Shown: positions 17,756 to 49,130 of the stretch, piece by piece
How the letters are laid out: each line of letters begins with the position of its first letter
Position numbering within the stretch: the first letter of the stretch is position 1
DNA from: Lachnospiraceae bacterium
GTDB lineage: Bacteria > Bacillota > Clostridia > Lachnospirales > Lachnospiraceae
DNA length: 64,000 bases
Assembly: GCA_017500935.1 (NCBI GenBank)
Contig: JAFVXW010000015.1
Location: forward strand, 38,416-102,415
Direction of reading: 5' to 3'
Made by a program: the position numbers and the translations under genes
The notes under the pieces: model-generated
Databases searched by the model: none
Told to the model about the DNA's origin: nothing
The model's input: only the letters and a program-made list of their open reading frames with translations

Positions 17756-20781
<3,026 letters not shown>

Positions 20782-20799
20782 GTTTCACCTGATAGTTAA

Positions 20800-21006
20800 T
20801 TACTGAATCTTTAATGTCTGTCCATTAAAAGTGATCACATCCCCGGGCACGATCTTTTTGCCGCGCTGGGTCTCAACTTCACCGTTTACTTTTACCAAAC
20901 CGTCCTGAATGACAAATTTGGCATCTACGCCGCTTTCCACCAGTCCGGCAGCTTTGAGCGCCTGACCAAGTTTGATAAAGTCATCTTTGATCTTGTATGT
21001 CTGCAT
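20800..21006 (-). CDS. yaaA: S4-domain RNA-binding protein YaaA
   Basis: Small S4-domain protein (68 residues) conserved between dnaN and recF in Firmicutes. The S4 fold is visible as IKLGQALKAAGLVESG, then VIQDGLVKVNGEVETQRGKK and IVPGDVITFNG, the RNA-binding loop pattern of the superfamily. Its role is linked to ribosome assembly in Bacillus, though evidence in Clostridia is thin. I start it at ATG 21006, which has GGGAG eight bases upstream; an in-frame ATG seven codons earlier has no good site. A hairpin separates it from dnaN. Confidence 0.88.
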   Translation of the reverse strand: MQTYKIKDDFIKLGQALKAAGLVESGVDAKFVIQDGLVKVNGEVETQRGKKIVPGDVITFNGQTLKIQ

Positions 21007-21076
21007 AAAAAATCTCCCAAATTTCAATCAGGTCTGCACACATGCTGCGCGGACCGTGAGAACGTGATACAAGTGT

Positions 21077-21119
21077 GCAAAAATCCCATCGCCGCAGGCG
21101 ATCTGAAATGGATTTTTGC
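21077..21119 (-). terminator. Hairpin between dnaN and yaaA
   Basis: Perfect 10-bp outer stem (GCAAAAATCC / GGATTTTTGC) with an inner TCGCC/GGCGA stem. Read leftward it ends in TTTTTGC, so it may terminate or attenuate dnaN transcription before yaaA-recF-gyrBA. Confidence 0.55.
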
Positions 21120-21133
21120 GGCAACCGTTAATT

Positions 21134-22243
21134 TTAATTAACAGTTGTAAAGTTTACAGGCAGAATCAGGTAAACATAACTGTTGTCATCATTTCTGATA
21201 AAGCAGGGTGCCTTGGGATTTACCAGGTACACAGAAATCTGCTCATCGTCAATGACTCTGAGTGCATCGATCAAAAACTTGGGATTAAAACCGATCATCA
21301 GATCGCGGCCAAGCTTTTCAATATCGATCTGCTCGTTCATGCTGCCCACGGTGGAATTGATCTTTAATTCCATGGAACCGTCAGTGATATTGATGATGAT
21401 GGGCTTTTTGTCGCCTTCTTTTACCAGAAGGGTAGCACGGTCTATACAGCTTAAAAATTCTTTTTTATTGATGATAACCTTGGTTTCGTAATCGTTGGAA
21501 AGCATCTGGTCGATGCGGAAATATTCGCCTTCGATCAGTCTGGAAACAACGGTGGTCTGGTCAAATTCAAATACCACATGCTTGGGTGTAAAGAACAATG
21601 AAACATCCTTGTCTGCATCACCGGAAAGAATTTTGCTGATTTCGTTTAAGGTCTTGCCGGGGATGACAACCTTTTTGGGATTATAGCTGTTCTTTAAGGC
21701 GATCTTGCGGATAGAGATTCTGTGACCGTCAAGGGAAACCACTTTCAGCTCCTCACCGTTAATCTCAAATAATTCACCTGTCATCAGACGGTTGTTGTCG
21801 TTGTCAGCAATGGAAAAAATGGTCTGTCTGATCACTTCCTTTAAGGTGAACTGGGAAACAATGACAGAATCATTTCTTTCAATCTGGGGAAGATAAGAAA
21901 AATCTTCACCGGATTTGCCGATAATATTGAATTTTGCCTTTTCGCAGGTAATGGTAGTCTTTAAATTGCTGTCGGAAGCAACCGTGATATCGTTGTCGGG
22001 CAGCTTTCTGATGATTTCCAGAAAGATTTTTGCATCCAGGGCGATGATGCCTTTTTCGATGATATCACCTTCGATGATGGTTTCAATGCCAAGTTCCATA
22101 TCATTGGCAGTCAGTTTGATCTGACCTTCGGTACAGTCAACCAGAATGCATTCCAGAATGGACATGGTGGTTTTGGAAGGTACCGCTTTGGATACAACCT
22201 GAAGACCAGCCAGAAGGTTTGACTTAGCGCATATAAATTTCAT
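21134..22243 (-). CDS. dnaN: DNA polymerase III beta subunit (sliding clamp)
   Basis: Beta sliding clamp that tethers DNA polymerase III to DNA. From ATG 22243 the protein has 369 residues and begins MKFICAKSNLLAGLQVVSKAV, the usual clamp N-terminus; AAAGGAG lies 10 nt upstream. The frame extends 15 codons further upstream without a ribosome site, so the longer start is rejected. Three repeats of the clamp fold are present, and the C-terminus ends AYLILPV-type (YVYLILPVNFTTVN). It follows dnaA after a 240-bp gap carrying DnaA boxes. Confidence 0.97.
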   Translation of the reverse strand: MKFICAKSNLLAGLQVVSKAVPSKTTMSILECILVDCTEGQIKLTANDMELGIETIIEGDIIEKGIIALDAKIFLEIIRKLPDNDITVASDSNLKTTITCEKAKFNIIGKSGEDFSYLPQIERNDSVIVSQFTLKEVIRQTIFSIADNDNNRLMTGELFEINGEELKVVSLDGHRISIRKIALKNSYNPKKVVIPGKTLNEISKILSGDADKDVSLFFTPKHVVFEFDQTTVVSRLIEGEYFRIDQMLSNDYETKVIINKKEFLSCIDRATLLVKEGDKKPIIINITDGSMELKINSTVGSMNEQIDIEKLGRDLMIGFNPKFLIDALRVIDDEQISVYLVNPKAPCFIRNDDNSYVYLILPVNFTTVN

Positions 22244-22280
22244 GTGAAGGACTCCTTTCTTAAAAAACGGATTCGTCCTG

Positions 22281-22495
22281 TTATCCACAGTGACGAAAGT
22301 AAATTACGGCAGTGGTTTGCAAAGGGTGGGCGGATGCCCGAAGATATAAATATATAAAGTAATCCGTAATCTTTGTAGTAGGGGATGTGAATATGTGGAT
22401 AACCCCTTCAATTATACTATTTATCAGCAAAAATGGGAATGCTTATGTTGTGAAAAACCTATGGATAACATGGGAAAACTCAAAAGTTATACACA
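22281..22495. other. oriC part 2: DnaA-box cluster between dnaA and dnaN
   Basis: Perfect DnaA boxes TTATCCACA at 22281-22289 and TGTGGATAA at 22394-22402, plus one-mismatch boxes at 22460-22468 and 22487-22495 (TTATACACA, overlapping the dnaA stop codon). A leftward -10 TATAAT reads from 22416 to 22411, with TTCCCA 17 bp upstream (22439-22434), a candidate dnaN promoter next to a box. Together with the cluster upstream of dnaA this gives a bipartite origin. Confidence 0.8.
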
Positions 22496-23848
22496 GATCT
22501 TTTTCTTGATTGTCTCAATCTTGCTTCTCAGTTCTTCGTTGATTTCTATTTCATCCACAATTTTATTCACACCGTGGATAACTGTAGTGTGGTCTTTTTT
22601 CCCCAGCATTTTACCGATATTGACAAAGGAAGTCGCGGTAAGCTGACGGCATAAGTACATCACAACCTGTCTGGGCTGTACAAATTCGGAGTTGCGCTTT
22701 TTGGAGGTGATATCGTCTGCGGATACGCCGAAATGCTCAGCAACTACTTCTATAATAAGAGCAGGAGTGATTTCCTTTGGCTTATCCGGGTTGATAATGT
22801 CTTTTAAAGCGTCTTCTGCCAGGGACAGTGTGATCTCAGACTGATTTTCAATCTTGGATTTGGCGATGATGCGGTTAAAAGCACCTTCCAGCTCACGGAT
22901 ATTGGACTTGATATTGGTGGCAATATACTGGAAGATCTCATCGTCTATCTTCTTATTGTAATAGTCAGCGTTTTTCTTTAAGATCGCCATACGTGTTTCG
23001 TAGTCGGGAGCCTGGATATCTGCGATCAGACCCCAGTCGAAACGGGAACGGAAGCGCTCTTCCAAAGTTTCCATTTCCTTGGGAGGTTTATCGGAGGATA
23101 GCACAATCTGTTTGCCGGAGGAATGCAGTACATTAAAGGTATGGAAAAATTCTTCCTGTGTACTTTCCTTACCTATAATAAACTGAACGTCATCGACCAT
23201 AAGTACATCGACCGTTCTGTATTTTTCACGCAGTTTGGTCATGGCTGTGGCATTACCGCTTCGGATGGATTCGATTACCTCGTTGGTAAAGGATTCGGAG
23301 GTAACATAAAGAACCTTCATCGAAGGATTCTGCTGCAGAATGAAATGTCCGATGGAGTGCATAAGGTGCGTCTTGCCAAGACCGGGGCCGCCATAGATAA
23401 ACAGAGGATTGTAGGCTGTTCCGGGGGATTCCGCAACCGCAAGGCAGGCAGAATGCGCAAACTTATTGTTATTGCCGACAACGAAAGTATCAAACATATA
23501 CTTTTCGTTCAGATTGGCCTGCTCATAATTGATATTATGTGTGTTGTTGGCAGGAGATTTTAAGTCTGCTTCACTGCTTTTGACAGCATTATCTTCTATA
23601 ATAAAGGAAACATCATAATTGTGATCAAACATTTCAGAGATGGTTACCTTAAAATAGGTGCTGTATTTGGAAGAAATATATTTAATTGCATGAGACAGCT
23701 TGGTGGGGATCAGGATGTAAACAATATTGTCTCTGACTTCAAAAAATTGCAGGGGCTCGATCCAGGTAATATATGAAATATTGGAAAGATCATATTCTGT
23801 ATGGATGACCTGCTTGATCGTTTCCCATTGTTCCTCGATTATGTGCAT
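22487..23848 (-). CDS. dnaA: Chromosomal replication initiator DnaA
   Basis: DnaA, the AAA+ initiator that melts oriC. From ATG 23848 it has 453 residues, with GGAGG five bases upstream. A Met four codons earlier lacks this spacing. Domain I is WETIKQVIHTEYDLSNISYITWIEP-like, followed by a variable linker. The AAA+ domain shows Walker A GGPGLGKTHLMHSIG and Walker B VLMVDDVQFI. Domain IV ends with the DNA-recognition signature KKDHTTVIHGVNKI. A candidate promoter at 23884-23912 overlaps a DnaA box, consistent with autorepression. Confidence 0.98.
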   Translation of the reverse strand: MHIIEEQWETIKQVIHTEYDLSNISYITWIEPLQFFEVRDNIVYILIPTKLSHAIKYISSKYSTYFKVTISEMFDHNYDVSFIIEDNAVKSSEADLKSPANNTHNINYEQANLNEKYMFDTFVVGNNNKFAHSACLAVAESPGTAYNPLFIYGGPGLGKTHLMHSIGHFILQQNPSMKVLYVTSESFTNEVIESIRSGNATAMTKLREKYRTVDVLMVDDVQFIIGKESTQEEFFHTFNVLHSSGKQIVLSSDKPPKEMETLEERFRSRFDWGLIADIQAPDYETRMAILKKNADYYNKKIDDEIFQYIATNIKSNIRELEGAFNRIIAKSKIENQSEITLSLAEDALKDIINPDKPKEITPALIIEVVAEHFGVSADDITSKKRNSEFVQPRQVVMYLCRQLTATSFVNIGKMLGKKDHTTVIHGVNKIVDEIEINEELRSKIETIKKKICV

Positions 23849-23883
23849 AACTACCTCCATAAAACGGAAATTTCATCTATTTT

Positions 23884-36371: not shown

Positions 36372-36520
36372 TTCCTGGAGCTAATAAAAAGTTTTAGTTC
36401 TCATGTACGCATAGAACGAATGTTCGTGACTGATAAACAGGAAATTATGAATTAACGGTTACCGGTTGCCGAAGGCAAAAAGGCTGAAAAAGCCCGTAAA
36501 TAAGCCAAAAATCGGCATTT

Positions 36521-36594
36521 GTTTCCGTAGCTCAGTTGGATAGAGCGTCCGCCTCCTAAGCGGAAGGTCGTGGGTTCAAATCCCGTCGGGAACA
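36521..36594 (+). tRNA. tRNA-Arg (anticodon CCT)
   Basis: Complete 74-nt cloverleaf: acceptor GTTTCCG/CGGGAAC, D arm GCTC/GAGC, anticodon stem TCCGC/GCGGA with loop CTCCTAA, T arm GTGGG/CCCGT with loop TTCAAAT, and discriminator A. CCA is not encoded. It is transcribed from the promoter at 36225 and followed by a terminator. The ICE begins right after it, and tRNA 3' ends are common integrase targets, so its 3' part is the likely attachment core. Confidence 0.95.
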
Positions 36595-36599
36595 TGAAT

Positions 36600-36930: not shown

Positions 36931-36977
36931 TGCCCGTTCTGATCAGATAAATAAATCTGATTGGAGCGGGCTTTTTT
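36931..36977 (+). terminator. Hairpin with T run upstream of the ICE parB1 gene
   Basis: GCCCG / CGGGC plus ATCAGAT / ATCTGAT stems followed by TTTTTT, 20 bp before the parB1 start codon. It looks like an attenuator, or a terminator of a short leader transcript. Confidence 0.7.
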
Positions 36978-36997
36978 GATTTTTGAAAGGAGAGTCT

Positions 36998-37873
36998 ATG
37001 ACAGATGAAAAAACTTCGATGATGATCGAGGAAAAAGAAAAAGTGATCGAATTGGACATTGAAAGATTAAGAACGTTCAAGGATCATCCGTTCCGGGTAG
37101 AAGCGGATGGAAAAATGGCAGAGTTAAAGGAGAGTATTGAAAAGTTTGGAATCATCAATCCTCTGATTGTGCGGCCGATGAAGGATGGAAGTTATGAAAT
37201 CATTTCCGGTCACAGAAGAAAGTACGCAGCAGAGCAGCTTGGATACAAAAAGGTTCCTGTCATTGTAAGAGTAATGGAAGATGGCGATGCCATCATTGCA
37301 ATGGTGGAGTCTAATCAGCAAAGAGAGTTCATATATCCCAGTGAAAAGGCTTATGCATATCGGATGAAATATGACGTTATGAAAAGACGCCAGGGCAGAA
37401 AGAAAAGAGGTCAAGTGATCTCTAATTATACAGGCAAGAGAACTGTTCAGATCCTGGCAGAAGAATTTGGAGACAGTCCAAAACAGGTACAGCGGTATTT
37501 GAAAATCTCACAGCTTATCCCCGGACTGATAAAAAAGTTGGATGAAGGGATGCTTTCCGTGAATCCTGCTGTTGAGCTGGCTTTTATGAAAGAAGCAGAT
37601 CAGCGGATCATGTTGGCAGTATTAGATGAAACAGAGTTGGTTCCGTCTTTGTCACAGGCACAGAGATTGAAACAGATGAGTTATGATAATTGTCTCTCAA
37701 AAGAAACCGCTGTTCAGGTATTGGGAGAAATAAAAAGAGGAGCAATAAGCCGGGTAGAATTTAAAAACGAACAGCTTTACAGATTTTTCCCAAGGTGGTA
37801 TTCCGCAGCGGAAATGAAAAGAGAAATAATTGAGATATTGAAAATCTGGACAGATAAGAAAATGAATTCATAG
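36998..37873 (+). CDS. ICE ParB-like partition protein 1
   Basis: ParB/RepB/Spo0J-family DNA-binding protein of 291 residues, starting at ATG 36998 behind GAAAGGAGAG. The ParB nuclease-like/CTP domain shows FKDHPFRVE, IISGHRRKYAAEQLG and ESNQQREFIYPSEKA. A helix-turn-helix region (ILAEEFGDSPKQVQRYLKIS) follows. The C-terminal YRFFPRWYSAAEMKREIIEIL matches its paralogue downstream of ParA. It probably stabilises the excised element with the adjacent ParA. The hairpin just upstream may regulate the whole par-rep operon. Confidence 0.88.
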   Translation: MTDEKTSMMIEEKEKVIELDIERLRTFKDHPFRVEADGKMAELKESIEKFGIINPLIVRPMKDGSYEIISGHRRKYAAEQLGYKKVPVIVRVMEDGDAIIAMVESNQQREFIYPSEKAYAYRMKYDVMKRRQGRKKRGQVISNYTGKRTVQILAEEFGDSPKQVQRYLKISQLIPGLIKKLDEGMLSVNPAVELAFMKEADQRIMLAVLDETELVPSLSQAQRLKQMSYDNCLSKETAVQVLGEIKRGAISRVEFKNEQLYRFFPRWYSAAEMKREIIEILKIWTDKKMNS

Positions 37874-37885
37874 GAGGAAAGACAA

Positions 37886-38671
37886 ATGTGTAAGGTTATC
37901 GCAGTGGCAATGCAGAAAGGCGGATGTTCCAAGACGAATGTGTCCGTAAACTTAGGAATCGGCCTGGCACGGGCTGGAAAAAGGGTTCTTTTGATCGATA
38001 ATGATCCCCAGGGATCTCTGACAGCAAGCTTAGGATATGATGATCCGGATGGAATGAGTGATACTCTGGCATCCATTATGATGAATGTGATCAACGAGGA
38101 AGAGATGGTACCTGGATATGGAATCCTGCATCAGAGAGAAGAAGTGGATCTGATACCTGCCAACATTGAATTATCCGGTCTGGAGGTCCTGATGGCTAAC
38201 GTGATGAGCAGGGAAAATATCATGAAAGAATATCTTGATGTGGTGAAAAAGAATTATGACTACGTGGTAATTGACTGTGCCCCGTCATTGGGAATGATGA
38301 CGATCAATGCACTTGTAGCTGCAGATTCAGTTCTGATACCGGTACAGGCAGCATATCTGCCGGTAAAAGGTCTGCAGCAGCTAATAAAAACAGTGGCGAT
38401 GGTCAAGAAGCGGCTTAATAAGAAAATCAAAGTTGAAGGTATTCTTATCACGATGGTAGATTACAGAACTAATTATGCAAAAGATATTTCGTCAAAGCTG
38501 AAAGAAACATATGGATCAACGGTTGGTGTATTTGATGCTTATATTCCCATGTCAGTAAAAGCTGCAGAATGCAGTTCGCAGGGAGTCAGCATCTTCGTAC
38601 ATGAACCGAAAGGGAAAGTAGCGGATGCATACAGAAGATTAACAGAGGAGGTTTTGGCACATGAGAACTAG
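37886..38671 (+). CDS. ICE ParA-like partition ATPase
   Basis: ParA-family ATPase of 261 residues. The deviant Walker A reads MQKGGCSKTNVSVNLG, keeping both lysines but with Ser for the usual Gly before the second Lys. DNDPQGSLTASLG (A') and VVIDCAPSLGMMTINALVAADSVLIPVQ (Walker B region) are normal. It lies 12 bp after parB1 and overlaps parB2 by 11 bp, so the three genes are one operon. It should act in segregation of the circular ICE; whether the Walker change lowers ATPase activity is unknown. Confidence 0.9.
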   Translation: MCKVIAVAMQKGGCSKTNVSVNLGIGLARAGKRVLLIDNDPQGSLTASLGYDDPDGMSDTLASIMMNVINEEEMVPGYGILHQREEVDLIPANIELSGLEVLMANVMSRENIMKEYLDVVKKNYDYVVIDCAPSLGMMTINALVAADSVLIPVQAAYLPVKGLQQLIKTVAMVKKRLNKKIKVEGILITMVDYRTNYAKDISSKLKETYGSTVGVFDAYIPMSVKAAECSSQGVSIFVHEPKGKVADAYRRLTEEVLAHEN

Positions 38672-39563
38672 ACCAGGACAGAAATTGAAATTGACTTCGG
38701 TTGAGGAACTGTTAAAGGTTCCTACTGAAGAGATGGCAACAGAAATAGAAATCAATCAGATTCATAGTTTCAAAGATCATCCTTTTAAGGTGTTAGATGA
38801 TGATAGAATGGCCGATCTTGTTGAAAGTATAAAGGAGAACGGAGTTCTTTCACCGGTACTGGTAAGACCTGACGGAGAAGACAGCTATGAGATGATCTCC
38901 GGTCACAGAAGAATGCATGCGGCACAGCTTGCTGGATTGGAAGTAATACCTGCAATCATCAGGGAGCTGACGGATGATGAAGCTGTGGTGTACATGGTTG
39001 ATTCGAATATCCAGAGAGAAGAGCTGTTGCCGAGTGAAAAGGCTTTTGCTTATAAGATGAAAATGGATGCTATGAAGCATCAAGGTGAAAGGTCAGACTT
39101 AACTTTGGGACAAAATGTCCCAAAGTTCAAGAGAACGACAGAAGCAATTGCTCAAGGTTCGGGAGAAAGTTATAAACAGGTTCAGCGATACATCCGTCTC
39201 ACCGAACTAATTCCCGAACTTCTTGATCTGGTTGACAACAAGCGCCTTCAATTTACAGTCGCTGTAGAGATATCTTACGTGGACAAAGCAATACAGCGAT
39301 GGATAAACGAATATATCCATGAAAATGGTTGTATAAAAAAAGAGCAGATTGATGCGCTGCGTCAAAGGATGTGTGCTGGAGCTGTTACCCAGGAGTTTGT
39401 TATTGAAATCTTGAACAGGTACAGTACAAACCGGAGTTTCAAGAAAAAAGTAACTTTATCAGAAAATAAATTAAAGAGATATTTTCCGCCACATTATTCT
39501 GCGTTGGATATGGAAGCGGTCATTCTTGAACTTCTGGAAGAATGGAGAGAACAAAACAACTAA
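38661..39563 (+). CDS. ICE ParB-like partition protein 2
   Basis: Second ParB-family protein, 300 residues, paralogous to the first: FKDHPFKVLDDDRMADLVES, MISGHRRMHAAQLAG, DSNIQREELLPSEKAFAYKMKMDAM, and a C-terminal LKRYFPPHYSALDMEAVILELLEEW. The helix-turn-helix zone is near QGSGESYKQVQRYIRL. It starts inside the end of parA (ATGAGAAC at 38661), which implies translational coupling. Two ParBs around one ParA is unusual; they may bind different sites or form mixed clamps. Confidence 0.88.
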   Translation: MRTRPGQKLKLTSVEELLKVPTEEMATEIEINQIHSFKDHPFKVLDDDRMADLVESIKENGVLSPVLVRPDGEDSYEMISGHRRMHAAQLAGLEVIPAIIRELTDDEAVVYMVDSNIQREELLPSEKAFAYKMKMDAMKHQGERSDLTLGQNVPKFKRTTEAIAQGSGESYKQVQRYIRLTELIPELLDLVDNKRLQFTVAVEISYVDKAIQRWINEYIHENGCIKKEQIDALRQRMCAGAVTQEFVIEILNRYSTNRSFKKKVTLSENKLKRYFPPHYSALDMEAVILELLEEWREQNN

Positions 39564-39574
39564 AGTAAATTATG

Positions 39575-39607
39575 GTTTCAGAAGTTCATTTTTTGGACTT
39601 CTGAAAC
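39575..39607. promoter_or_regulatory. Inverted repeat upstream of repA, matching the repA iterons
   Basis: GTTTCAGAAGT (39575-39585) and ACTTCTGAAAC (39597-39607) form a perfect 11-bp inverted repeat in the 67-bp gap before repA. The right arm, read on the other strand, gives TTTCAGAAGTCC, identical to the end of iteron 4 inside repA (40126-40137). This suggests that RepA binds its own leader for autoregulation. Confidence 0.7.
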
Positions 39608-39630: not shown

Positions 39631-40689
39631 GTGAATGAAAAGATAATGTTCCAGTATTACTACGGTAATGAAGCGGAACAATACAGTTTTTTTAAAATAC
39701 CCAAACTTCTGATGACACATTCATATTTCAAAGAACTGTCAAATGATGCAAAGATCCTGTATGGTCTTTTGCTGGATCGGATGTCATTGTCAAAGAAAAA
39801 TGAATGGTTTGACGAAGAAAACAGGGCATATATCGTTTTCAGTATCGAAGAAATAGCTGAAAACTTAAATTGCAGCCGCGGAAAAGCAATTAAATCATTA
39901 CAGGAACTAGATTCTGAGAAAGGCATCGGGCTTATCGAAAAGCGCCGTGTCGGTCAGGGCAACAATACTGTAATCTATGTGAAGAATTTCATGATCAAAG
40001 AAGATGTTAATTCGCAGCAATCGAATGCTGAAGATAAAAGCAGTCGGAAAACCGGCTGTATTACAGGTGGAAAACCGACCTTAAGTGAGCCGGAAAACCG
40101 TCCGTCAGAAGGCCGGAAAACCGACTTTCAGAAGTCCAAAAAACGGACTTCCAGAAGTACAAATTTTAGACTTCTAGAAGTACAAAATTTGGACCCTAAT
40201 AATACTAATATAAATAATACTGAATTAAATAATACTGAATTAAATAATACTGATCCTATCGTATCTAAGGTAAATAACAATAAAAAAGAACAATACGATG
40301 CACGATGCGATGAGATTGAAATAACTGCAGAAGATTATGCTGAGCTTGTCAGGGATAATATTGATCTTGATGCTTTGATGGAATCGAATCCATCAGACAG
40401 AGAAGTAATCCAGGGAATCTATGACCTGATCGTGGAAACACTTGTTGGGAGCAATGAAAAGATCCTGATCGCCAGTGACTGGTATCCTGCATCATTGGTC
40501 AAGAGTAAGTTTAGCAAGCTTAATGATCTGCATGTTCAGTATGTTGTTGATACGCTCAGGAGTAACACATCTAAAATCCGGAATATCAAGAAATATATTC
40601 TGGCTGCACTGTTCAATGCACCCAACACAATGAGCAGTTATTTCCAGGCAGAAGTAAATCATGATTACCCGGCATATGCAGGAAAGTGA
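39631..40689 (+). CDS. RepA_N-type replication initiator
   Basis: Replication initiator of the RepA_N family, 352 residues, starting at GTG 39631 behind AAGGAGAAG. The N-terminal winged-helix domain carries FFKIPKLLMTHSYFKELSNDAKILYGLLLDR-type sequence (FKIPKLLMTH; DAKILYGLLLDRM) and EEIAENLNCSRGKAIKSLQEL. The middle (about residues 135-215) is low-complexity because it overlaps 23-bp iterons and an AT-rich tandem repeat. The C-terminal domain (about 240-352) looks like the DUF6017 type. It should replicate the circular ICE intermediate from an origin inside its own gene, as known for RepA_N plasmids. Confidence 0.88.
   Translation: MNEKIMFQYYYGNEAEQYSFFKIPKLLMTHSYFKELSNDAKILYGLLLDRMSLSKKNEWFDEENRAYIVFSIEEIAENLNCSRGKAIKSLQELDSEKGIGLIEKRRVGQGNNTVIYVKNFMIKEDVNSQQSNAEDKSSRKTGCITGGKPTLSEPENRPSEGRKTDFQKSKKRTSRSTNFRLLEVQNLDPNNTNINNTELNNTELNNTDPIVSKVNNNKKEQYDARCDEIEITAEDYAELVRDNIDLDALMESNPSDREVIQGIYDLIVETLVGSNEKILIASDWYPASLVKSKFSKLNDLHVQYVVDTLRSNTSKIRNIKKYILAALFNAPNTMSSYFQAEVNHDYPAYAGK
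40046..40183 (+). repeat. Six 23-bp iterons inside repA (putative ICE oriV)
   Basis: GGAAAACCG occurs at 40046, 40069, 40092 and 40115, at exactly 23-bp steps. Two further degenerate units follow at 40138 and 40161 with the same period. The second halves of units 3-6 share (T/C)(C/T)AGAAG, becoming the palindrome ACTTCTAGAAGT in unit 6. Because 23 is not a multiple of 3, the repeats encode different peptides, so selection is on DNA. This matches in-gene iterons of RepA_N replicons. Confidence 0.85.
40184..40280 (+). repeat. AT-rich 15-bp tandem repeat next to the iterons (putative unwinding element)
   Basis: TAAATAATACTGAAT is repeated at 40211-40225 and 40226-40240, with most of a third copy at 40241-40253, within a long AT-rich stretch. 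It encodes LNNTE repeats in RepA. The position directly beside the iterons fits a DNA unwinding element. Confidence 0.65.
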
Positions 40690-43394: not shown

Positions 43395-45119
43395 ATGAGT
43401 CTGCCGTATGCAGCAATCTGGTATGTTGCTGATTAGATTACCAGATTGTTCAGAAAGTCGAGGGGAGATGACTTTGGAGAGAAATTTCTGAACGCCTTCC
43501 TGAATATTGAAAAGGCTTTTGAAAACATCATCCCCAGCTTTCATCCGGTGGATATGCTGATAGGTATTGTTGCAGCATTGATCATTTTTCTGGTCATTCA
43601 GGAAAAAAAGAAGAATGCCAGGCAATTCCGGCATGGAGAAGAGTATGGATCAGCCAGATGGGGAAATGCCAAAGACATCAAACCTTTCATGGATCCTGAG
43701 CCGGATCAGAATATCATTCTGACTCAGACAGAAGGAATCACGATGAACAGTCGGCCGAAAGATCCTCGCTATGCCAGAAACAAAAATATTCTGGTGATCG
43801 GGGGATCCGGTTCCGGAAAGACACGTTTCTTCGTAAAACCTTCTCTGATGCAGCTGCACAGTTCTTATGTGGTAACAGATCCTAAGGGAAGTCTGGTCGT
43901 TGAAACCGGGAATATGCTCTTGAAAGCAGGGTATGAGATAAAGATACTGAATACCATCAATTTTAAGAAGTCCATGAAGTACAATCCATTCCAGTACATC
44001 CGGTCTGAAAAAGATATCTTGAAGCTGGTTAATATCATCATGACCAATACAAAGGGGGAGGGAGAAAAATCAAATGAAGATTTCTGGTCGAAGAGCGAAC
44101 GCTTATATTACTCCGCGCTAATCGGATACATCTGGTATGAAGCGCTGGAAGAAGAAAAAAATTTCATCACATTGCTGGAAATGATAAACGCTTCCCAGGC
44201 AAGAGAAGATGATGAAAATTATAAATCTCCGGTAGATATGATGTTTGAAGATCTGGAAAAGAAGGATCCTGAACATTTCGCAGTCAGACAGTATAAAAAA
44301 TACAAACTGGCTGCCGGCAAGACAGCAAAATCCATTTTGATTTCCTGCGGTGCCAGATTATCACCCTTTGATATCAGAGAACTGCGGGAACTGATGGAAT
44401 ATGACGAGATGGAGCTGGATACGCTCGGTGACAGAAAAACAGCATTGTTTTTGATCATGAGTGATACAGATTCCACTTTCAATTTCGTCATTGCCATGCT
44501 GCAGAGCCAGTTGTTTAACCTGCTGTGTGATAAAGCAGATGATGTTTATGGGGGAAGACTTCCCATACATGTCAGGTGTCTGCTGGATGAGTTTAGTAAC
44601 GTGGGCCAGATACCACAGTTTGAAAAGTTAATAGCAACCATTCGAAGCCGGGAAATCTCGGCTTCTATTATTTTACAGTCACAGTCGCAGCTGAAAGCAA
44701 TCTATAAAGATCACGCTGACACCATCATAGGTAACTGTGACTGTACTTTATTTCTGGGTGGAAAGGAAAGCACCACCTTAAAAGAAATGTCGGAGATGCT
44801 GGGAAAGGAAACCATCGATCTTTACAATGTTTCGGATACGAGAGGGTCCAATCGCAGTTATGGCATCAGTTATCAAAAGACTGGTAAGGAGCTTATGACA
44901 AAGGATGAACTTGCTGTAATGGATGGCGGGAAATGTATCCTGCAGGTAAGAGGTGTCAGACCTTTTTTGAGCAGCAAATATGACATCACAAAACACAAGC
45001 GTTATTGCCAGCTTTCTGATAGTAACCCAAAACTGGCTTTTGATATTGAAAAATATTTAGAGCACCATCTGCGACTTCACAAAGACCAGGTCGTGGATGT
45101 ATATGATGTTGGTCTTTGA
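43395..45119 (+). pseudogene. VirD4/TcpA-type coupling protein, interrupted by an in-frame amber codon
   Basis: Type IV coupling protein that feeds DNA-relaxase complexes to the conjugation channel. The body is intact: Walker A GGSGSGKTRFF, Walker B CLLDEFSNVGQIP and the TraG/TraD-type C-terminus. The first membrane helix is encoded upstream (MSLPYAAIWYVAD from 43395), but TAG at 43434-43436 stops this frame immediately before ITRLFRKSRGDD. The remaining open frame can start only at TTG 43446, without a ribosome site, giving 557 residues that retain the second helix (about residues 36-51). The expected start codon position near 43365 reads ATA. Transfer may be impaired unless the codon is suppressed. 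Confidence 0.8.
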
Positions 45120-46306: not shown

Positions 46307-46687
46307 ATGGCATTTGTACCTGTACCAAAGGATCTTACCAGAGTGAAGAGTAAGATCCTTTTTCATCTGACTTTAAGACAACTGGTATGCTTTAGCGCCG
46401 GTGCTGCTGTGAGTGTCCCTGTTTACCTTCTGGCCAAAGGCAGTATCGGTACCACGTATGCCTCTATTCTGATGATCCTGATCCTGCTTCCGTTTCTGGC
46501 GTTTGCTTTGTATGAAAAAGATGGAATGCCGTTGGAAGAGGTCATTCGGATCATGATCAGGCAAAAATGGATCCTGCCGGGAGTCAGACCTTATCAGACA
46601 AGAAATCTTTATGAGATCTTGCAAAAAAGTGAAGAAAATGGAGAGGAGGATATCGTTGAAGGAAAAGAAAAAAGAGAAGACCGATGA
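46307..46687 (+). CDS. PrgI family conjugation protein
   Basis: A 126-residue protein of the PrgI (VirB3-like) family, starting MAFVPVPKDLTRVKSKILFH. Two hydrophobic segments (about residues 30-43 and 51-66) anchor it in the membrane. The C-terminal part is basic, then acidic. PrgI partners with VirB4 in the transfer machine. Its end overlaps the virB4 start by 32 bp, suggesting coupled translation. Confidence 0.88.
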   Translation: MAFVPVPKDLTRVKSKILFHLTLRQLVCFSAGAAVSVPVYLLAKGSIGTTYASILMILILLPFLAFALYEKDGMPLEEVIRIMIRQKWILPGVRPYQTRNLYEILQKSEENGEEDIVEGKEKREDR

Positions 46688-49130
46688 AGCTGTCAGGGCT
46701 GGAACCGGAAGAGGAAATGGATCAGTACTCTCCGGTGAACAGAAAAAGAGGCTGGTCAAAGAGAAACTGCGGGAAAAGAAAAGAAAGAAGAAAGTGCCAA
46801 GAATGGCATACAATGAGGTGAAAAGAAAGAAAAATGTGCCATATACAGCACAGGAGAGTATTCCATACAGGGAAATGTACAAAGATGGGATCTGTCGGGT
46901 GACGGACAGGCTTTATACGAAAAGCATCCGGTTCGGTGATATCAATTATCAGTTGGCACAGAATGATGAAAGAGCGTCATTATTTGAAGCATGGTGTGAT
47001 TTTTATAATTACTTTGATCCAAGTATAAGTCTGCAGATCACATGTGTGTGTCATTATGCAAATCCTGAGGAACTGGAAGCCGCGATCCATATTCCTGAAA
47101 AAGATGATGCGTTCAATGAGATCAGAAAGGAATATGCCAAAATGCTTCATGATCAGATGGCAAAAGGAAATAATGGGCTGGTCCGAGCAAAATATGTGAC
47201 TTTTGGTATAGAAGCGGATGACATCAGGGCGGCAAGACCGAAGTTGGAGCGTATCGAAACGGATATCAGAAACAACCTGCGGACAATGGGAGTTTCCTGC
47301 CACAGCCTTTCAGGGTATGACAGGCTGAAAGTGCTTTTTACAGCATTGAATCCGGGAACAAGAGAACCGTTTTTGTTCAACTATGATATGGTTGCAAGAA
47401 CGGGACTTTCAACGAAGGATTTTATTGCTCCTACCGGATTTGATTTTAGGGAATCCCGATATTTCAGGATGGGAAGTACAGTTGGAGCTGTGTCTTATCT
47501 GCATATCCTGGCGTCAGAGCTTTCTGACAAGATGCTGGCAGAGTTTATGGAGATGAACAATGCAATAACCATTAATCTTCATGTAAGAAGTATCGACCAG
47601 GGACAGGCAATCCGGATGCTTAAGAGTAAGATCACAGAACTGGACAGAAGTAAGATCGAGGAGCAGAAACGGGCCGTCAGATCAGGATATGATATGGATG
47701 TGCTGCCGTCTGATCTTGTCCTGTATGGAGATGATGCAAAGAAGTTTTTGGATGGTCTGCAGAACCAAAATGAAAGAATGTTCCTGGTAACGGTTCTGGT
47801 AATGAATGTGGCTCCTTATAAAAGAAAGCTGGATAATATCATCTTTCAGACAGAGGCTATCGCCCAGAAATATAATTGCCCTCTTCGCCGGCTGGATTTC
47901 TTACAGGAAGCCGGACTGATGAGCAGCCTTCCTATCGGTCAGAATCTGATCAACATTAATCGAGGGATGACCACGGCTTCAACGGCTGTGTTCGTACCTT
48001 TTACAGCAGAGGAATTGTTTCAGGGTGGAGAAGCTTTATATTATGGATTGAACGCCGTCAGCAATAACCTGATCATGGCAGACAGAAAACTGTTGAAAAA
48101 TCCAAACGGGATCATTCTGGGAACTCCCGGATCAGGAAAATCCTTTGCGGCAAAAAGAGAGATCGTCAATGCGTTTCTGATGACTGATGATGATATCATC
48201 ATTGCAGATCCGGAGGCAGAATATAAGCCTTTAGTAGAAGCACTTGGAGGACAGGTGATCAGGATCGCGTCCAACAGCCCGCATCATATCAATCCGTTGG
48301 ACATCAACGTCAATTATTATGAAGATGATGATCCGGTATCTTTGAAGGCAGAATTTATTCTGTCTTTGTGTGAACTGATCCTTGGTCCCAATGGAAGGAT
48401 AACTCCGAAGGAAAGAACGATCCTGGACAGATGTACAGGGATCATCTATCGGAGATATTTTGAAGATCCGGTACCGGAAAAAATGCCTATCCTTGAAGAT
48501 CTGTATAATGAGATCTTATTACAAAAGGAACCGGAGGCAGAAGGACTTGCTACTTCTTTGGAAATTTACGTGAAAGGATCCTTGAAACTGTTCAATCACC
48601 GTACAGATGTGGATGTGATGAACAGGGTGATCTGCTTTGATATCAAAGATCTGGGAAAACAGCTTAAAAAACTGGGAATGATGGTGGTACAGGATGCGGT
48701 GTGGAACAGGGTTACACAGAACAGAGGCCGCCACAAAAATACCAGATATATGATCGATGAATTTCATCTTCTTTTAAAAGATGAACTCACAGCATCCTTT
48801 TCAGCGGAAATCTGGAAGAGATTTCGTAAATGGGGTGCGATGCCTACAGCTGTGACTCAGAATGTGGCAGATCTATTAAGGTCCCCGGAAATCGGCAATA
48901 TACTGAACAATTCGGATTTTATCCTGATGTTGGATCAGAGAGGCGCAGACAGAGAGATACTGACTGAACACTTAAATATCAGTCCACACCAGTTGGAATA
49001 TGTGTCAAATTCCAATGAAGGTGAAGGGCTGATTTTTTATGGGAATATGATCATTCCTTTTAAGGACAAATTTCCCAGAGATACAAAACTGTATCAATTG
49101 CTTACAACAAAACCTGCAGAAATGGCATGA
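46656..49130 (+). CDS. VirB4-type conjugation ATPase
   Basis: VirB4-family ATPase that powers assembly of the conjugation channel, 824 residues. It starts at TTG 46656, six bases after GAGGAGGA, inside the end of the PrgI gene. The N-terminus is strongly basic (KEKKKEKTDEAV... KKRLVKEKLREKKRKKK). The C-terminal motor has Walker A GTPGSGKSFAAKRE, IIIADPEAEYKPLV, Walker B RYMIDEFHLLL and the motif C region PTAVTQNVADLL. All ATPase motifs appear intact. Confidence 0.93.
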   Translation: MKEKKKEKTDEAVRAGTGRGNGSVLSGEQKKRLVKEKLREKKRKKKVPRMAYNEVKRKKNVPYTAQESIPYREMYKDGICRVTDRLYTKSIRFGDINYQLAQNDERASLFEAWCDFYNYFDPSISLQITCVCHYANPEELEAAIHIPEKDDAFNEIRKEYAKMLHDQMAKGNNGLVRAKYVTFGIEADDIRAARPKLERIETDIRNNLRTMGVSCHSLSGYDRLKVLFTALNPGTREPFLFNYDMVARTGLSTKDFIAPTGFDFRESRYFRMGSTVGAVSYLHILASELSDKMLAEFMEMNNAITINLHVRSIDQGQAIRMLKSKITELDRSKIEEQKRAVRSGYDMDVLPSDLVLYGDDAKKFLDGLQNQNERMFLVTVLVMNVAPYKRKLDNIIFQTEAIAQKYNCPLRRLDFLQEAGLMSSLPIGQNLININRGMTTASTAVFVPFTAEELFQGGEALYYGLNAVSNNLIMADRKLLKNPNGIILGTPGSGKSFAAKREIVNAFLMTDDDIIIADPEAEYKPLVEALGGQVIRIASNSPHHINPLDINVNYYEDDDPVSLKAEFILSLCELILGPNGRITPKERTILDRCTGIIYRRYFEDPVPEKMPILEDLYNEILLQKEPEAEGLATSLEIYVKGSLKLFNHRTDVDVMNRVICFDIKDLGKQLKKLGMMVVQDAVWNRVTQNRGRHKNTRYMIDEFHLLLKDELTASFSAEIWKRFRKWGAMPTAVTQNVADLLRSPEIGNILNNSDFILMLDQRGADREILTEHLNISPHQLEYVSNSNEGEGLIFYGNMIIPFKDKFPRDTKLYQLLTTKPAEMA

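Follow-up and report, generated by a model that had tools for sequence, protein, structure and literature searches.

The repA gene of a Tn1549-type conjugative element probably contains a RepA_N-type theta origin within its own coding sequence, and a further box in the repA leader is presumably an operator through which RepA would regulate its own synthesis; judged from the sequence, we consider this reading about 80% probable. In the window, by which we mean the whole stretch of 64,000 nucleotides (64 kb) analysed here, an array of palindromic 23-bp boxes is present inside repA and a single such box in its leader. The period of the array is conserved among related repA genes, and the constraint behind it acts on the DNA.

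The repA gene and its product

The repA gene (39631..40689, plus strand) encodes an initiator that consists of a RepA_N DNA-binding domain, a linker encoded by the repeats and a C-terminal DUF6017 domain. The RepA_N domain was recognised at residues 19-93 (Pfam PF06970, E 6.5e-27), and the N-terminal domain also matched the solved RepA domains 4pt7, 5kbj, 4pql and 4pta in the PDB by sequence (E down to 8e-19). Such an N-terminal domain is a trait of RepA_N replicons, as are a box array in the central region of that gene (here at 40038-40198) and boxes that are semi-palindromes converging on an A-tract, a form seen across 118 distinct boxes and strongly palindromic in two of the seven boxes of the window itself. 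RepA_N replicons also have a DnaD-like C-terminal domain that contacts DnaG. The DUF6017 domain of the present protein was assigned to residues 233-346 (Pfam, E 2e-34); a profile of this domain gave no convincing match in the PDB (best E 0.056, to an unrelated protein), and DUF6017 was not met in our literature search of open-licence papers. Two more RepA_N-like open frames of 174 and 183 aa (loci L002 and L003, G000:C12) occur in the same genome outside the window.

A palindromic 23-bp array inside repA

The presumed origin is made up of seven contiguous 23-bp palindromic boxes (40038..40198, plus strand), putative RepA-binding sites that start at 40038, 40061, 40084, 40107, 40130, 40153 and 40176. 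The first-pass annotation had reported GGAAAACCG four times in exact 23-bp steps, and these copies were indeed found, starting at 40046, 40069, 40092 and 40115; TRF returned a period of 23 in three overlapping rows that cover 40069-40194. The unit has the palindromic form AGAAGT-N11-ACTTCT, with the two arms converging on an A-tract. Two units to the right of the four copies had been described as degenerate members of the same period. The period holds for them, but they are more than degenerate copies, as the units at 40130 (7/8 pairs) and 40153 (6/8 pairs) are more palindromic than any other in the array; the four GGAAAACCG units pair at 1, 2, 2 and 4 of the 8 positions and the last unit at 3/8. 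The same annotation was correct in placing an array within the gene, but it missed an isolated unit ahead of repA (39580-39602).

At loci L005, L024, L026, L033 and L053 an extra box lies 43 bp ahead of the first unit of the array (gene positions 377-407), and a lag-43 signal in the self-match test agrees with it; no box with this offset is among those listed for the window. The number of boxes is 4, 7 or 10 at 20 of 30 loci. We do not claim that it steps by three, since the proportion of differing pairs that are multiples of three varied from 15/32 to 117/310 with the identity cut-off, the box counts at some loci over-run into the A+T stretch, and the arithmetic of the reading frame would by itself be a sufficient explanation.

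Conservation of the period and constraint on the DNA

Self-match scores were compared with those of 100 synonymous-codon shuffles per gene in 46 repA genes, namely that of the window, 16 from genome contigs and 29 from family genomes, several of them near-copies. For the repA gene of the window the score at lag 23 was 63, whereas the 100 shuffles averaged 7.9 and reached 18 at most. With near-copies included, the top lag was 23, 46 or 69 in 36 of the 46 genes (23 in 32 genes; 46 or 69 in four, L011, L019, L028 and L034), and the lag-23 score exceeded all 100 shuffles in 39, the exceptions being L015, L031, L035, L039, L040, L042 and L045. Ten genes had neither 23 nor a multiple of it as their top lag (L015, L030, L031, L035, L039, L040, L042, L045, L048 and L049), and some of these had top lags of 45-47, 24, 17/34/51 or 15. 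A loss of the period among related repA genes, which would have spoken against the origin reading, was thus not seen, the period being kept in most relatives.

For the box set, 16 near-identical loci were dropped by eye and weak arrays were also dropped, which left 30 loci with 126 boxes, 118 of them distinct. When the phase was chosen for each array by the most complementary arms, the same frame, AGAAGT...ACTTC, was obtained in most lineages. The arms were complementary in 66.2% of cells (118 distinct boxes, kinship ignored), whereas 1000 shuffles of the right-hand columns averaged 55.5% and never exceeded 59.0%. Sliding the arms by 1-3 positions left only 14-32% complementary, a control that leans in favour of the palindrome because the phase was picked for palindromy. 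The central positions 10-13 of the distinct boxes were mostly A. Box starts fell on the three codon positions in the proportions 48/43/35 (126 boxes, 30 loci); with starts in every one of these positions, the constraint acts on the DNA. It had been argued beforehand that a period not divisible by three implies repeats conserved as DNA and not as protein, and both the shuffle test (39/46) and the codon positions bear this out.

Directly after the boxes follows a presumed unwinding element with 87% A+T and a 15-bp repeat (40199..40253, plus strand); the A+T-rich 15-bp tandem repeat that had been noticed behind the 23-bp units was recovered by TRF at 40198-40253. Its self-match score at lag 15 was 35 in the repA gene of the window, whereas synonymous shuffles averaged 23.2 and did not go above 31. 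The lag-15 score exceeded all 100 shuffles in only six of the 46 genes (the window, L014, L017, L020, L024 and L046) and, as the period is moreover divisible by three, the 15-bp repeat for the most part cannot be separated from the coding sequence, which is rich in Asn and Thr.

A single box in the repA leader

An isolated palindromic box, presumed to be an autoregulatory operator, lies between parB and repA at 39580..39602 (no strand assigned), 51-29 bp ahead of the start codon of repA. A repeat search found 39581-39606 to be 92% complementary to 40126-40151. Exact AGAAGT-N11-ACTTCT sites occur twice in the 64-kb window, at 39580 and 40153, compared with an expected number of 0.01, and a weight matrix built from all boxes, those of the window included, ranked 39580 second in the whole window. 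At 19 of 61 loci the motif, which was defined on the same data after the leaders had been read, lies in the 75 nt that precede repA, compared with a single occurrence in 282,816 nt elsewhere outside repA. Sixteen of these 19 sites belong to six lineages within the clade of the window (L005-L010 with L023; L024, L025 and L065; L026 and L027; L053 and L066; L033; and the window). The other three (L015, L035 and L036) are equivocal: as read by eye they overlap the end of parB, and a period of 23 is absent from the arrays of these loci. Other clades (e.g. L014, L016, L019, L032 and L041) had no leader site.

In a blind self-match test of array and the 300 nt ahead of the gene, the score surpassed each of the 60 shuffles at only 7 of 40 loci (the window, L025, L026, L027, L033, L053 and L061), the signal of L061 lying at another place, and for the L005 group the match of array to leader was not significant. 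Positions 7 and 17 are G and C in both the leader and the array of L026 and L053, and elsewhere a pyrimidine or A with a purine; this covariation comes from two related lineages and perhaps reflects one event. No leader copy of the array was found in the seven RepA_N plasmids with upstream sequence, and promoters near the leader box were not in excess (10 found, 11.8 expected). Among the matches listed from the open-licence literature, we found no published description of a leader RepA box in RepA_N systems.

The element and its genomic setting

Upstream of repA are genes for a parA-like partition ATPase (37886..38671, plus strand; AAA_31 1.3e-55) and, directly next to repA, for a parB-like partition protein (38661..39563, plus strand; ParB_N 3.7e-24, TIGR00180 6.4e-33). 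Further downstream, the conjugation genes that are a trait of Tn1549-type ICEs were found, encoding a VirD4-like coupling protein of the CD1115 family (43446..45119, plus strand; NF045973 1.3e-172, above cut-off) and a VirB4-like ATPase of the CD1110 family (46611..49130, plus strand; NF045971 1064.9 bits, above cut-off). A tRNA-Arg(CCT) gene (36520..36595, plus strand; ARAGORN) is a possible left attachment site. Using a 21-bp probe, we found no second copy of the 3' end of this tRNA in the assembly that could serve as attR, and no integrase or right end was seen up to the window's end, where the contig stops. DnaA boxes near repA were not in excess (5 found, 5.5 expected). The window also contains dnaA (22487-23860, minus strand) with dnaN, recF and gyrB (17756-22288), so that an element with a putative origin of its own would lie ~16 kb from what is presumably the chromosomal oriC. 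ParB-domain genes are located on both sides of parA at the element's left end (36983-37873 and 38661-39563), and a strong terminator-like hairpin of 17 pairs with a T-tail (36932-36971) stands just before the first of them.

Comparison with other RepA_N systems

The control set comprised eight RepA_N plasmids, three staphylococcal, four from lactobacilli and one from Lactococcus. The staphylococcal plasmids (L070, L071 and L077, the last with trsA) have a period of 23 at gene positions about 409-499, compared with 408-568 in the window. In those from lactobacilli (L072, L074, L075 and L076) the period is 54 or 63, and the plasmid from Lactococcus (L073) has no clear array. Since 23-bp arrays occur in the staphylococcal plasmids and other periods elsewhere, the design is common to the staphylococcal type but not universal. 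The likeness to RepA_N plasmid origins that had been suggested at the outset is thereby supported by the period, the palindrome with its A-tract and the position in the gene. RepA_N iterons have been described as semi-palindromes converging on a poly-A tract, and the unit of the window type corresponds to the iteron as described there (PMC7145576).

Origins of the pSK41 type share with the window a RepA_N N-terminal domain and Rep boxes in the central part of the rep gene; the likeness in period and position is drawn from the three staphylococcal plasmids, pSK41 itself being compared by description. In pSK41 the RepA_N boxes within the rep gene number four (PMC5703833), whereas the window has seven. 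The C-terminal domain there is of another family than the DUF6017 found here, and antisense RNA control has been reported for the pSK41 type, whereas the window has a leader box.

Among the plasmid or virome relatives, 10 of 11 had 23 or a multiple of it as their top lag with a clear score, while L057 was weak. The most telling relative, pAPRE01 of Anaerococcus prevotii, is a circular conjugative plasmid record of 115,566 bp that resembles the window in its related RepA N-domain and its 23-bp boxes of nearly the same sequence, and the window's module in its CD1115/CD1112/CD1110/CD1107 conjugation genes and topoisomerase III. Its RepA is the sole annotated initiator within 1-50,000 and 58,113-115,000 of the 115,566 bp, according to a gene table that is incomplete. 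This RepA is of the 258-aa class, with the DUF6017 stretch absent from the tblastn match and a gene for an ATP-binding protein located after it, and, unlike in the window, no leader box was found. pAPRE01 may itself be integrative, because recombinase genes are present.

With regard to integrative elements, RepA_N and ParA are present in many Tn1549-type ICEs, and replication has been implicated in the maintenance of TnGBS (PMC4701971). TnGBS1, TnGBS2 and the Tn1549/Tn5252-type ICEs resemble the window in that a RepA_N initiator and partition genes are combined in a conjugative element (PMC4701971; TnGBS by description), but an origin inside repA, as proposed for the window, is not described in the passages of PMC4701971 considered here. 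The PLE satellite of Vibrio cholerae likewise has a RepA_N initiator and palindromic iterons with a poly-A centre, which are bound there; these iterons lie in a noncoding region, whereas those of the window are inside the initiator gene (PMC7145576).

Small human-gut contigs labelled 'Bacteriophage sp.' that carry such a repA were dropped as support because their circularity is unproven (no terminal direct repeat of 10-299 nt in 8 of 8 viewed whole), and so was the 518-kb Monoglobus 'plasmid 12' record, which may be a mislabelled chromosome. The scan of viral contigs gave one locus only.

Alternative roles of the boxes

The repeats might be nothing other than an ordinary low-complexity protein linker with no role as DNA, as the richness of the linker in Asn, Ser, Thr and Lys, the in-frame 15-bp repeat and the mere six of 46 genes in which lag 15 beats the shuffles would allow. 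Such a linker would, however, not be expected to keep a period of 23, which is not divisible by three and surpasses all 100 synonymous shuffles in 39 of the 46 genes, or to retain palindromic arms in boxes that begin in every codon position. We regard this explanation as very improbable, and a pure protein repeat is rejected on the shuffle test together with the codon-position spread. The boxes could instead be protein-binding sites without a working origin, RepA_N having been turned to a centromere-like role with ParAB or to a transfer step; Weaver et al. 2009 speculated on other roles for RepA_N of conjugative transposons (reported in PMC7145576). The parAB genes directly upstream of repA fit this explanation, an origin is not strictly required in the integrated state, the 23-bp period is absent in 10 of the 46 genes, and replication is here read from sequence. 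Nevertheless, the architecture of the array is that of plasmid RepA_N origins and is kept in many ICE-type relatives, and the array is also present in the plasmid record pAPRE01, whose conjugation module is of the same type. In our judgement this second explanation is improbable.

As for the leader palindrome, the main rival is that it forms an RNA hairpin, acting as an attenuator or in translation control, and is not a RepA operator. As RNA, the leader does fold into a strong hairpin (-20 kcal/mol, z -3.2) directly ahead of the ribosome-binding site, and repA of staphylococcal RepA_N plasmids is controlled by leader RNA structures and antisense RNA (PMC8129170, PMC5703833). However, the leader site matches a box beyond a mere stem, in its 23-nt length and its A-tract as well. 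Moreover, either orientation occurs (a T-tract in the window, an A-tract in L005 and L026), and the G/C at positions 7/17 is common to leader and array in the L026 and L053 groups, two related lineages that may represent one event. The hairpin therefore appears unlikely to us, though it deserves serious consideration.

A model for replication and its control

If the boxes constitute an origin, as we prefer to read them, the N-terminal domain of RepA, probably as dimers or higher oligomers, would bind the seven palindromic boxes, the adjoining A+T-rich stretch would open, and host replication proteins would be recruited by the DUF6017 domain. We infer that the excised element replicates autonomously; with parAB adjacent to the origin, the circle would be a plasmid throughout its excised state. 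By means of the single leader box RepA would repress its own synthesis, leaving the origin quiet during integration. A working theta origin, located ~16 kb from dnaA, would then be silent in the chromosome and become active once the element is excised, and the ICE would be a facultative plasmid. Speculation by Weaver et al. 2009 (as reported in PMC7145576) left it open whether RepA_N of conjugative transposons still drives replication or has other functions. An origin that is kept at the DNA level in many elements of this kind would make plasmid-like replication the default expectation, and its exact sites are given here.

Antisense RNA and leader structures control staphylococcal RepA_N members (PMC5703833, PMC8129170), and as far as the relevant passages of PMC5703833 go, such control is seemingly absent from RepA_N plasmids of other genera. 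As a RepA operator, the leader box would fill this control gap and represent a copy-control principle distinct from staphylococcal antisense RNA. We tentatively suggest, at somewhat less than even odds, that the RepA_N elements of this ICE clade have swapped antisense-RNA copy control for an initiator-operator loop, with the arms of the leader box following those of the array.

Directly upstream of repA, 9 of the 61 loci, from six lineages (L011, L020, L022, L030, L031, L033, L063, L064 and L067), have an open reading frame of about 115-130 aa that encodes little more than a RepA_N DNA-binding domain; at L020 it extends into repA, though in a different frame. Its product could be a dedicated competitor or repressor. 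RepA_N proteins of ~100 aa occur in IMEs (PMC5357655).
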